Source: Rhodospirillales bacterium 70-18 (GTDB lineage Bacteria > Pseudomonadota > Alphaproteobacteria > Acetobacterales > Acetobacteraceae). From it: a stretch of DNA of 64,000 bases. The stretch is taken from the NCBI GenBank assembly GCA_001899585.1, contig MKWE01000031.1, positions 156,040 to 220,039 of the forward strand, read 5' to 3'. Position numbers and translations under genes: made by a program. Below the pieces are notes generated by a model. It was not told where the DNA came from and ran no database searches. It worked only from the letters and a program-made list of their open reading frames with translations. Every line of letters starts with the position of its first letter. Positions within the stretch are counted from its first letter, which is position 1. Positions 5,086 through 17,699 of the stretch are shown here, in pieces.

Positions 5086-5787
5086 TCAGACCCCGGGCTT
5101 GAGCACGTAGCCGCGGCCGCGGACGGTGTGCAGGAAGCGTGGTTCGCGGGGGTCGGCCTCGATTTTGCGGCGCAGGCGGGTCATTTGCACGTCGATGGCG
5201 CGTTCGCCGGCTTCATCCATGTCCAGCGCGGCAGCGATGTCCTCGCGCGACAGCACCTCGTTGGGCCGGGCGGCGAGCGCGCCCAGCAGCGCCGCCTCGC
5301 CCCCGGTCAGCCGCATCGGACCGGCCGGGCCGCGGAGTTCGCCGCGCTCGCGGTCGAAGGACAGCGGCCCCAGCGGTAGCGGGCCGGCGGGCGGGCCGAT
5401 CAGCGGGGCCGGCGGCGCGGCGCGGCGCAGCATGGCGCGGATGCGCAGCACCAGCTCCTTCGGCTCGAACGGCTTGGGCAGGTAGTCGTCCGCCCCCGCC
5501 TCGAAGCCGGCGATGCGGTCTTCCGGGGCGCCGCGCGCGGTCAGCAGCAGCACCGGGATGTCGCTGTTGTCGCGGCGCAGCGACTCGGTGAGTTGCAGGC
5601 CGGTTTCGCCGGGCATCATCACGTCCAGCACCATCAGGTCGGGCTGCACGAAGCGCAGGTGGTCGCGCGCCGCGGCGGCGTTGGCGGCGGCGGTGACGCG
5701 AAAGCCGGTCTCGCCCAGGTAGCGGGCCAGCCGCTCGCGCAGCCGGTCGTCGTCTTCCACCACCAGAATCAGCGCGTCCTCGGCCAT
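5086..5787 (-). CDS. OmpR/PetR-like response regulator
   Basis: A 233-residue regulator. Residues 1-120 form a receiver domain with the acidic pair VVEDDD, phosphoacceptor aspartate in LMVLDVMMPG, the conserved threonine in LLLTARG and lysine in LPKPFEPKEL. Residues 135-233 form a winged helix with LTGGEAALLGALAARP and VQMTRLRRKIE followed by the wing VRGRGYVLKP. It lies between a MarR-family gene and an EnvZ-like kinase beside ilvE, an arrangement like the petP-petR locus of Rhodobacter. GGGAGG sits five bases before the ATG. The target genes cannot be read from the sequence. Confidence 0.9.
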   Translation of the reverse strand: MAEDALILVVEDDDRLRERLARYLGETGFRVTAAANAAAARDHLRFVQPDLMVLDVMMPGETGLQLTESLRRDNSDIPVLLLTARGAPEDRIAGFEAGADDYLPKPFEPKELVLRIRAMLRRAAPPAPLIGPPAGPLPLGPLSFDRERGELRGPAGPMRLTGGEAALLGALAARPNEVLSREDIAAALDMDEAGERAIDVQMTRLRRKIEADPREPRFLHTVRGRGYVLKPGV

Positions 5788-14687: not shown

Positions 14688-14703
14688 GTCAGGCGGGTGT
14701 AAG
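14688..14703 (+). promoter_or_regulatory. 16-bp box upstream of the response regulator gene
   Basis: GTCAGGCGGGTGTAAG ends 41 bases before the ATG at 14745. The identical 16 bases occur on the minus strand at 17699-17684, 49 bases before the PepSY gene. Identical sequence at matching distance before both units of this locus suggests a binding site, most simply for the response regulator itself. Confidence 0.65.
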
Positions 14704-14744
14704 CTTGCGCGGCCAGGATCGCCGATCCTTGCCGAGGAGTGGCC

Positions 14745-15419
14745 ATGCGCCTGCTGGTGATCGAGGACGAACCCAACCTGGCCGCGCTGGTGCGCGCGGC
14801 GCTGGACCGCGCCGGATTCGCGGTGGACCACGCCGCCGGGCTGGCCGAGGCGGATGCCTGCCTGCGCATGGCCGCCTATGACGCGCTGGTGCTGGACCTC
14901 GGCCTGGGCGACGGCTGCGGCCTTACCCTGCTGCGCCGGCTGCGCGCGCGGCATGACGGGGTGCCGGTGCTGATCCTGACCGCGCGCGACGCGCCGGAGG
15001 ACCGGGTGGGCGGGCTGGACACCGGGGCGGACGACTACGTGATCAAACCGTTCCACATGGATGAGCTGGTCTCGCGCATCCGTGCCCTGCTGCGCCGGCC
15101 GAACGCGGCGCTGGGGGTGCGGCTGTCGCTGGGCACGGTGGTGCTGGACACCGTCACGCGCACCACCCAGGTGGGCAGCGAGCCGCTCGGCCTGTCAGCG
15201 CGCGAGACGGCGCTGCTGGAGCTGCTGCTGCGCCGGGCCGGCCGGGTGGTGCCGCGCGAGGCGCTGGACCAGGGGCTGTACGGCATGGACAGCCCGGCCA
15301 CGCCGAACGCCATGGAGGTGCTGGTGCACCGGCTGCGCAAGCGGCTGCAGGATGCCGGGGCGGACGTGGCGATCCATACGCTGCGCGGCGTCGGCTACCT
15401 GCTGGCGGCGGCGGAGTGA
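14745..15419 (+). CDS. OmpR-family response regulator (QseB/TctD-like)
   Basis: A 224-residue regulator: receiver with IEDEPNL, phosphoacceptor aspartate in ALVLDLGLGDG, threonine in LILTARD and lysine in VIKPFHMDEL; winged-helix half with LSARETALLELLLRRAG and EVLVHRLRKRLQ, wing LRGVGYLL. GAGGAG lies six bases before the ATG. Its stop overlaps the kinase start by four bases (GTGA). It faces a cytochrome b561-PepSY operon that carries the same 16-bp box, so autoregulation and control of that operon are likely. Confidence 0.93.
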   Translation: MRLLVIEDEPNLAALVRAALDRAGFAVDHAAGLAEADACLRMAAYDALVLDLGLGDGCGLTLLRRLRARHDGVPVLILTARDAPEDRVGGLDTGADDYVIKPFHMDELVSRIRALLRRPNAALGVRLSLGTVVLDTVTRTTQVGSEPLGLSARETALLELLLRRAGRVVPREALDQGLYGMDSPATPNAMEVLVHRLRKRLQDAGADVAIHTLRGVGYLLAAAE

Positions 15420-16822
15420 TCCGGGCGGAGTGGTGGCTGTGGCGCCGGCTGGCCTGGCGCCAGGCGGCGGCGCTGCTGCTGGCGATCGCGCTGGCCGCCG
15501 GCACGGTGGCGTGGCGCACCGTGGCCACCATCCGCTCGCTGGACGACGTGGCGCTGCAAAGCCAGGCGCGGCTGGTGGCCGACCAGCTTTCCGCCAGCCC
15601 CGACGGGCGGCCGGTGCTGTACATGCCGCCCTCGCTGGCGGCGGCCTTCGCGACCTCGGACGGCGAGAGCCTGTACATGGTGTTTGACGGCGCCAACCGG
15701 GTGCTGCTGGCCTCCAACCCGGCGGCCGAGGCGCTGCTGGCGCCCTACCTGCCGCCGCCGCCGCAGACCGGGCTGTTCCGGGTGCCGCCGTCGGAGCGCT
15801 ATCCCGCCGGGCTGCTGGGCGCGCTGATCACCGCCGGGCCGAACGGCCCGCTGGGGGCGCATCCCTGGCGGGTGGTGGTGGCGCAGGCGCAGGAGCAGCA
15901 GGAGGCGCTGCTGGCCAGCCTGCTGCGCGAATTCCTGGTCAGCACGCTGTGGTTCCTGCTGCCGATCGGCGCGCTGACCGTGCTGGTCGGCGTGCTGACC
16001 ACTCGGCACGGCCTGCGCCCGCTGCGCGACGCCTCGGCCGCCGCCGCGCGGATCGGGCCGCAACAGGCCGGGATGCGCCTGCCCGAGACCGGCCTGCCGG
16101 GCGAACTGGCGCCGCTGGTGGGCGCGATGAATGGCGCGCTGGCGCGGCTGGAGCGGGCGCTGGACGCGCAGCGCCGCTTCGTCGGCGAGGCGGCGCACGC
16201 GCTGCGCACGCCGCTGGCGGTGCTGACCGCGCGCATCGACGCGTTGCCGAAGGACAGCGCCCCGGACACGGCCGCAGCACTGGGGCAGGATGCCGACCGG
16301 CTGGCGCGGCTGGTGGCGCAGATGCTGACCATGGCGCGCCTGGAGGAATTGCCGCTGGACGTGTCCGGCCCGGTCGACCTGGCCGAGGTGGCGGTGGAGG
16401 CGATCAGCGCCCGCGCCCTGCTGGCCATCCGCGCCGGGGTGGAACTGGTGCTGACCCGGCCGGATTCGCCGCCCGCCTGGCAAGGCAACCGCGACGCGCT
16501 GGTGCTGGCGCTGGGCAACCTGATCGACAACGCACTGACCCATGCGCCGCGCGGCACGGTGGTGGAGGTGGTGGTGCGCCCGCCGGCCCGGCTGTCGGTG
16601 CTGGACCGCGGCCCCGGCGTGCCGGAGGCGGAGCGGGCGACGATCTTCACCCGCTTCGGGCGCGGGCGCGGCGCGCCGGCGGGCGGTGCGGGGCTGGGCC
16701 TGGCGATCGTCGCCCGCATCGCCGCCGCGCATGGCGGTTCAGCGCGGGTCGAGCCGCGCGAAGGCGGCGGCGCGGCCTTCGTCATCGACCTCGCCGCGCC
16801 CGCCATCATGCCGGCCGGGTAG
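15416..16822 (+). CDS. sensor histidine kinase (QseC/TctE-like)
   Basis: A 468-residue membrane kinase starting with GTG in the regulator's stop. Two transmembrane helices (about residues 17-34 and 177-197) flank a sensor domain of about 140 residues in the periplasm. Then come a short HAMP, the phosphoacceptor box GEAAHALRTPLAVLTARID, N box NLIDNALTHAP, DRGPGVP and the G box GAGLGLAIV. The N-terminal layout fits the two-component sensor kinase N-terminal family. The last 84 bases overlap the cytochrome gene on the opposite strand. Confidence 0.92.
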   Translation: MIRAEWWLWRRLAWRQAAALLLAIALAAGTVAWRTVATIRSLDDVALQSQARLVADQLSASPDGRPVLYMPPSLAAAFATSDGESLYMVFDGANRVLLASNPAAEALLAPYLPPPPQTGLFRVPPSERYPAGLLGALITAGPNGPLGAHPWRVVVAQAQEQQEALLASLLREFLVSTLWFLLPIGALTVLVGVLTTRHGLRPLRDASAAAARIGPQQAGMRLPETGLPGELAPLVGAMNGALARLERALDAQRRFVGEAAHALRTPLAVLTARIDALPKDSAPDTAAALGQDADRLARLVAQMLTMARLEELPLDVSGPVDLAEVAVEAISARALLAIRAGVELVLTRPDSPPAWQGNRDALVLALGNLIDNALTHAPRGTVVEVVVRPPARLSVLDRGPGVPEAERATIFTRFGRGRGAPAGGAGLGLAIVARIAAAHGGSARVEPREGGGAAFVIDLAAPAIMPAG

Positions 16823-17353
16823 CTCGGCCGGCTTGCGCCCGGTGACCATCGCCGCCACCAGGTTCTCCCGGTGCAGCACGCTGGACACCACCACGCCCAC
16901 CAGATGCAGCCCGATCAGGATCAGCAGCAGATGCGCCGAGATGTGGTGCAGGTGGTCCACCCAGGGCACGCCGAACCAGCGGTCGGTCTCGGTCATCCAG
17001 CCGCTGCCGGCGACCAGCACCAGCATGGCCAGCAGCAGCGCCACCATGGCGCCGCCGGCCGGGTTGTGGCCCAGATAGCGCGGCGCCCGGCCGCGGCGCA
17101 GCGCGCCCAGATACGCCAGCACCGCGCGCGGGCCACGCACGAAATCGGTGAAGCGGGCATGGCGGGTGCCCACCAGGCCCCACAGGATGCGGGCCGACAC
17201 CAGCGCCAGGACGGCATAGCCCAGCGGCTCGTGCAGCCATTTCTCGTCCGGCGAGAGGAAGGTGGCGCTGAACAGCGCCACCGTGCCCCAGTGAAACACC
17301 CGGACGAAGGGGTCCCAGACGCGGATATGCGCGCCGGGAGCGGCCTTCGCCAC
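16739..17353 (-). CDS. cytochrome b561-type membrane protein
   Basis: A 204-residue di-haem b cytochrome with four helices. Candidate haem ligands are His in RVFHWGTVALF, His in LHEPLGYAVL, and the pair in HHISAHLLLILIGLHLVGV. It is the class that passes electrons to or from a periplasmic or secreted partner. It starts five bases after the PepSY gene stop, so the two form an operon; b561/PepSY pairs under a two-component system are common in proteobacteria. The C-terminal 28 residues are charged and overlap the kinase gene antisense. Confidence 0.88.
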   Translation of the reverse strand: MAKAAPGAHIRVWDPFVRVFHWGTVALFSATFLSPDEKWLHEPLGYAVLALVSARILWGLVGTRHARFTDFVRGPRAVLAYLGALRRGRAPRYLGHNPAGGAMVALLLAMLVLVAGSGWMTETDRWFGVPWVDHLHHISAHLLLILIGLHLVGVVVSSVLHRENLVAAMVTGRKPAELPGRHDGGRGEVDDEGRAAAFARLDPR

Positions 17354-17358
17354 CGGGC

Positions 17359-17634
17359 CTACTCCCGGTTCATGATGGCGCCGGTCGCGCCGTTCAGTTC
17401 CAGTTCGAAGCGCTTGCCCTTGCTGTCCAGGCCCTTGGCCTCCCAGCAGCCGTTATGCGTCGACAGGCCGCGAACCTGGGTATAGCCGCGGGAGTGCAGG
17501 CTTTTGGTGATGGCGTCGCGCGTCATCATGGCGCCGGTGATGTGGCAGGACTCCTCGGCCGAGGCGGTGCCGGCGAGGCCGATGGAACCGGCGAGGATGG
17601 CGGCGGCGAAGGCGATCTTGGTCAGGCGGGGCAT
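17359..17634 (-). CDS. secreted PepSY-domain protein
   Basis: A 91-residue protein with a signal peptide (LTKIAFAAAILAGSIGLAGTASA, cleavage after ASA) followed by a single small PepSY-like domain: ITGAMMTRDAITKSLHSRGY, VRGLSTHNGCWEAKG, DSKGKRFELELNGATGAIM. Two cysteines could form a disulfide. Small PepSY proteins are periplasmic and often sit with b-type cytochromes. The promoter region holds the 16-bp box shared with the two-component genes. Confidence 0.88.
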   Translation of the reverse strand: MPRLTKIAFAAAILAGSIGLAGTASAEESCHITGAMMTRDAITKSLHSRGYTQVRGLSTHNGCWEAKGLDSKGKRFELELNGATGAIMNRE

Positions 17635-17683
17635 GCGGAACTCCGATGCGCTGTTGAACACCAGGCCACCCTGCGCCGACCGC

Positions 17684-17699
17684 CTTACACCCGCCTGAC
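17684..17699 (-). promoter_or_regulatory. 16-bp box upstream of the PepSY-cytochrome b561 operon
   Basis: Read on the minus strand this is GTCAGGCGGGTGTAAG, identical to 14688-14703 and 49 bases before the PepSY start. See the entry there. Flanking bases differ between the two sites, which argues against a recent duplication of the whole promoter. Confidence 0.65.

Follow-up and report, generated by a model that had tools for sequence, protein, structure and literature searches.

A GTMAG-N6-GTAAG direct repeat as the probable operator of a two-component system and its facing PepSY–cytochrome b561 operon in the Acetobacteraceae

Two boxes in a 64,000-nucleotide stretch of the Rhodospirillales bacterium 70-18 genome (the window; contig MKWE01000031.1, positions 156,040 to 220,039) are identified as the probable operators of a response regulator (RR). 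On the evidence of gene order, motif conservation and promoter geometry, we are confident that an autoregulated PmrA/QseB-type two-component system (TCS) would act through both boxes to activate a periplasmic and membrane electron-transfer pair. What is conserved is a pair of 5-mers in direct repeat, GTMAG-N6-GTAAG, with an 11-bp period.

Results

The RR is an OmpR/PhoB-family protein with receiver and winged-helix domains (14745..15419, forward strand; assigned with Pfam and NCBIfam), and the start of the sensor histidine kinase gene that follows it (15416..16822, forward strand; 2CSK_N periplasmic, HAMP-like, HisKA and HATPase regions) overlaps the RR stop codon. Facing the TCS on the reverse strand is an operon whose first gene encodes a secreted PepSY_2 protein of 91 aa (PF13670, 17359..17634) and whose second gene encodes a membrane cytochrome b561 (PF01292, 16739..17353). 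The kinase and cytochrome b561 genes overlap tail to tail at their 3' ends by 84 bp (16739-16822).

An earlier sequence-only reading had noticed the 16-mer GTCAGGCGGGTGTAAG 41 nt before the RR ATG and, on the other strand, 49 nt before that of PepSY; in the intergenic sequences that it covered it had seen no further copy. Both placements are correct (the ATG of the RR is at 14745 and the A of the PepSY ATG at 17634), and exact copies occur at these two places only in the 5.05-Mb genome, against ~0.003 expected genome-wide from base composition. The next-best match in a whole-genome search has two mismatches, matches with three mismatches are not above a reversed-pattern control, and the window itself holds no match at up to three mismatches besides the two boxes. 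The site is rare in the genome, not a frequent and randomly placed word. The predicted operators, both of the form GTCAG-N6-GTAAG, are operator A at 14688..14703 on the forward strand (half-sites 14688-14692 and 14699-14703) and operator B at 17684..17699 on the reverse strand.

Orthologous systems were defined by a kinase match at E 1e-75, which was found in 20 of 398 genomes; the resulting locus set, all holding this TCS, comprises 19 same-family relatives and the window (212,728 bases). Scanning the genome contigs with the kinase alignment mainly picked up distant kinases; just two close loci were added, each corresponding to a relative that the set already contained. At a spacer of 6 bp, perfect GTMAG-N6-GTMAG repeats number 28 across the 20 loci; spacers of 3, 4, 5, 7 or 9 bp give none, a spacer of 8 bp gives one, and the reversed-pattern control gives no repeats. 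A putative tandem operator with a period of ~11 bp, a trait of the OmpR/PhoB family, is present. In front of the RR the box is perfect at 8 of the 20 loci, against 0 in 200 shuffles, carries one mismatch at 7 more and is absent from 5, and it lies mostly 35-45 nt before the ATG. When orthologous promoters are compared, the fixed-spacing direct repeat is kept at both kinds of promoter, that of the RR and that of the electron-transfer operon.

The shared 16-bp box of the earlier reading is real in both copies, but the conserved unit is the repeat. Identity over the full 16 bp, spacer included, is found in this genome and in relative G007, which has GTCAGGTGCCTGTAAG at both promoters; at most orthologous loci it is not kept between the boxes. 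The 16-mer itself was rejected as a motif because spacer sequences vary from locus to locus. Half-sites of the PmrA/BqsR type, TTAAG, make up neither the two window boxes nor the 40 aligned sites, all of which have GTMAG instead. In a related clade (L192, L193, L194, L196, L197 and L200) the repeat is mixed: TTCAG-N6-GTCAG, a further variant of the operator, lies 47-48 nt ahead of the RR start, and there PepSY_2 adjoins the RR, divergently in the loci inspected. One orthologous kinase frame (L161, genome G346) contains a single internal TGA, so that either the gene is broken or the sequence has an error.

The repeat stands at a fixed distance from a predicted -10 element. When those 40 sites were aligned on the box alone, an A, which had played no part in choosing the sites, was found exactly 12 nt downstream of the box in 36 of them and a T 16 nt downstream in 20, and the other flanking columns carried little information. 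The chance of an A at +12 in 36/40 sites is ~1e-23 at 17% background, and 2e-12 when just half the sites are counted as independent. By its position this A marks the putative -10 element, whose first base lies 11 nt after the last G of the box. In the window the predicted elements are CAGGAT for the RR promoter (14714..14719, forward strand) and CAGGGT for the PepSY–b561 promoter (17668..17673, reverse strand), each separated from its operator by 10 nt. Neither window promoter has a -35 consensus (at most 2/6 matches), and the place where it would lie falls inside the box. In PhoB-type promoters the bound activator replaces the -35 contact, and a fixed 10-nt distance to the -10 element is what such an activator needs. 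The predicted layout is that expected for a PhoB/PmrA-type activator operator: the repeat ends 10 nt before the -10 element and covers the missing -35, and therefore the RR most likely activates. In the TTAAG-N6-TTAAG operator of the activator BqsR the downstream pentamer likewise overlaps the -35 (PMC4682146).

Nearly all perfect repeats in the 20 loci precede either the RR or the facing electron-transfer operon, which may be PepSY_2–b561, cytochrome c'–b561, b561 alone or a class I cytochrome c; at loci without PepSY_2 the box stands before a cytochrome c'-like gene followed by b561, before b561, or before a cytochrome c. One cytochrome behind a box has CxxCH and no Pfam match. The PepSY–b561 pairing seen by the sequence-only reading holds in the window, but many relatives have cytochrome c' as the partner of b561. 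More distant relatives, with RRs 46-50% identical, retain the same convergent module, and their box is GTCAG-N6-GTCAG or differs from it by one mismatch. Boxes in relatives are divergent or on different contigs and are nearly always in phase with a -10. Two loci (L186, positions 200 and 1303; L187, positions 5610 and 6710) carry two tandem PepSY-like and b561 operons beside one TCS copy, each operon with a GTAAG-N6-GTAAG box and an A at +12.

Boxes are also found away from the TCS. Among PepSY_2 genes elsewhere in the family GTMAG-N6-GTAAG lies upstream of 1 of 60, in genome G301, where the boxed PepSY–b561 operon and the TCS are on different contigs. In G007 an unlinked PepSY–b561 operon has the box GTCAGGTGCCTGTCAG, which agrees with the system's own boxes at 15/16 positions, and in G246 an undirected genome-wide pattern search gave a hit 40 nt upstream of the gene for an RR belonging to this clade. 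Common descent from a local duplication would hardly account for these three finds. The description of the window as a closed module proved too strong, because the boxed PepSY–b561 operons of G007 and G301 lie on other contigs and the window's genome (G000) holds two further candidate sites.

Four sites in that genome combine the box with an A at +12, two of them being the window boxes; since ~3 are expected by chance from composition and the reversed control gives 1, the other two are candidates only. One, GTCAGCGTCCTGTAAG with a GATGGT -10 (contig C9:133668-133699, reverse strand, site position 133684; L188 2685), lies ~90 nt before the gene for a secreted Gly-Asp-His-rich protein with GGDHGGG-type repeats. 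The other, GTAAGGTATCTGTCAG with a -10-like CATCCT (C9:257060-257091, forward strand; L254 2561), is upstream of a DedA-like membrane protein gene, named by eye without a family search, which faces another PmrA-like TCS. Motif counts per genome were rejected as a regulon predictor: the pattern alone is near background genome-wide without promoter position, so it can predict targets only once position is added.

The RR matches PF00072 and PF00486 above the Pfam cut-offs. Its nearest NCBIfam models are PmrA, TctD, RppA and QseB, and it falls far below every equivalog cut-off, scoring 196.7 bits against PmrA (cut-off 330) and 175 bits against QseB (cut-off 345). The closest solved structures are of PmrA/BasR (8jo2 and 4s04), one entry including DNA. 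There are 13 OmpR-type RRs in the genome, and no GTMAG pair was found upstream of the 11 others examined. An OmpR-family RR elsewhere in the window (5098-5769, reverse strand; 41% identical to this RR) is without an upstream GTMAG repeat. Outside the window, a PmrA-like paralog that is 44% identical to the RR (G000 C24:32167-32817, L258) has a perfect TTAAG-N6-TTAAG, the classical PmrA/BqsR operator, 46 nt before its start.

In the recognition helix the window RR has Arg196 at the position which, as aligned in this analysis, is Asn196 in PmrA and Arg201 in PhoB. Among RR promoters with a clear repeat, residue 196 is Arg in 11/11 GTMAG users and Asn or His in 4/4 TTAAG users (Fisher p 7e-4, without correction for relatedness). 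A general rule that Arg reads G was rejected, since CpxR combines Asn at the corresponding position of the helix with a GTAAA half-site, and the correlation was kept as a lead only. Asn196 of PmrA makes base contacts (PMC4660055) and Arg201 of PhoB contacts a guanine (PMC3973317).

The kinase has no RExxE iron site (absent in 6/6 orthologous kinases), and an invariant, juxtamembrane Glu160 lies just before its second membrane helix. Cytochrome b561 matches PF01292 at E 2.3e-22, and its His21, His41, His136 and His150, invariant in 11 sequences, are the likely di-haem ligands; its predicted model shows long helices, and these traits agree with a four-helix b-type cytochrome with four His ligands. 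A function like that of the superoxide oxidase CybB, which oxidises superoxide and reduces quinone, drew no support from the PDB, where b561 had no match by sequence and its model no meaningful one by fold search. In PepSY_2, Cys30, Cys63 and His60 are invariant in 10 sequences, and a fold search shows a weak resemblance to the PepSY proteins YpmB and UipA.

Discussion

The data are brought together in a model in which the kinase would sense an envelope signal and phosphorylate the RR at Asp51. An RR dimer would then bind head to tail on the half-sites of GTMAG-N6-GTAAG and stand in for the -35 contact, turning transcription on as PhoB and PmrA do, and would raise both its own operon, by positive autoregulation, and the facing one. 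The products of the latter, periplasmic PepSY_2 and di-haem cytochrome b561, would together link the quinone pool to a periplasmic partner by electron transfer. That the regulator reads both boxes, as the sequence-only reading had proposed, is supported by their conservation before the RR and the electron-transfer operon, and with the same docking site at such promoters in many relatives the RR very probably turns on both operons.

Repression through the same operator and regulator, with the bound RR blocking polymerase over the -35 until a signal relieves it, would fit the overlap of the operator with the -35 position, but there is no -35 consensus there to block, and a constant gap of 10 nt to the -10 suits an activator of the PhoB kind. 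BqsR, with the same pentamer spacing and its downstream pentamer over the -35, activates (PMC4682146), and repression is considered unlikely. Still less probable is that another OmpR-family regulator, CpxR-like or the paralogous PmrA-like one, reads the boxes and the adjacent RR has other targets. The GTAAA-N6-GTAAA sites of CpxR are similar, CpxR controls a cytochrome b561 gene (yceJ) in Pseudomonas (PMC12802237), and any of the genome's 13 OmpR-type RRs could in principle bind such sites; the box, however, travels with this TCS clade, including to unlinked operons in genomes that have the system, whereas 0/11 other RRs examined are preceded by the GTMAG pair, the PmrA-like one having TTAAG-N6-TTAAG in its place. 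A small mobile element with the boxes as its terminal repeats is scarcely credible: they do flank a four-gene module in inverted orientation, but no transposase lies between them, the identity does not extend past 16 bp, the flanks show no target-site duplication, and the boxes of relatives are divergent or on different contigs. The phasing with the -10 refutes this reading of the inverted boxes.

What PepSY_2 does admits a more serious alternative, in which it is mainly a feedback partner of the kinase and b561 a separate output. The precedent is DbfQ, a PepSY protein that is likewise small and periplasmic, which binds to the DbfS sensor domain and acts as a brake on that kinase, and PepSY genes are more than 60-fold enriched beside TCSs (PMC12714742). 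Here, however, PepSY_2 shares its operon with b561 and not with the TCS, the PepSY–b561 operon lies away from the TCS in G007 and G301, and in relatives the haem protein cytochrome c' takes the place of PepSY_2 before b561; because of this replacement a redox role, as an electron or metal partner of b561, is favoured for PepSY_2. Feedback as its main role is given a minor but real chance, and feedback and electron-transfer roles could coexist.

Each element of the proposed activating system has a known counterpart, in PmrA, BqsRS, DbfQRS and the SHP operons. PmrA (BasR)/PmrB has an OmpR/PhoB-family RR, the closest by solved structure, and the PmrA box also consists of head-to-tail half-sites with an 11-bp repeat, CTTAAG/CTTAAT with 5 bp between (PMC3973317); unlike the present system, PmrA has a TTAAG half-site and Asn196 and targets LPS modification rather than electron-transfer genes, and the RR here scores far below the cut-off of the PmrA equivalog model. 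BqsRS (CarRS) of Pseudomonas aeruginosa shares the tandem pentamers and N6 spacing (PMC4682146), and its PepSY-like bqsP and bqsQ genes adjoin the TCS and belong to its regulon. They lie upstream and in line with the TCS, whereas here PepSY faces the TCS and heads the b561 operon, and BqsS has an E45xxE48 iron site that has no RExxE counterpart in the kinases studied here. DbfQRS of Vibrio cholerae likewise joins a small periplasmic PepSY protein to an autoregulated TCS, and opposite-strand arrangements are reported among PepSY–TCS neighbourhoods; the module as described there has no b561 (PMC12714742). By the rule that defines DbfQRS-like modules, the window has a small secreted PepSY gene (PF13670, 17359-17634) within four genes of the TCS.

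SHP/DHC/cytochrome b operons resemble the present output in that they pair a di-haem cytochrome b in the membrane with a haem protein in the periplasm; a TCS encoded nearby, in some cases QseC-like, is regarded as their likely regulator, and the text consulted describes no operator (PMC2909971). In contrast to those operons the window operon consists of PepSY_2 and b561 only, without SHP or di-haem cytochrome c genes, and the periplasmic partner is PepSY_2 or, in relatives, a mono-haem cytochrome c' or c. The CpxR regulon has the same tandem layout and includes a cytochrome b561 gene (PMC12802237), but the last base of its half-site is A where it is G here, and the clade studied here is PmrA/QseB-like. 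A literature search joining PepSY, cytochrome b561 and two-component found no paper, and the literature searched, which covered few subscription papers, holds no description of a GTMAG operator, a strict promoter phase or an exchangeable carrier–b561 output; these three features of the clade appear to be new.

It is an appreciable possibility, though short of an even one, that this PmrA/QseB-like clade switched its half-site from TTAAG to GTMAG via one Asn/His-to-Arg change in the recognition helix, gaining insulation from the TTAAG paralog in the same cell, and that it governs an exchangeable cassette of PepSY_2 or cytochrome c' with b561, unlinked copies included. One half-site base and one helix residue, with both variants in one genome, would make a simple test case for paralog insulation. 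One repeated 16-mer becomes a testable operator with a fixed promoter geometry, and PepSY–cytochrome b561 modules, for which neither the signal nor the electron partner is well defined, become accessible at the level of their promoters.
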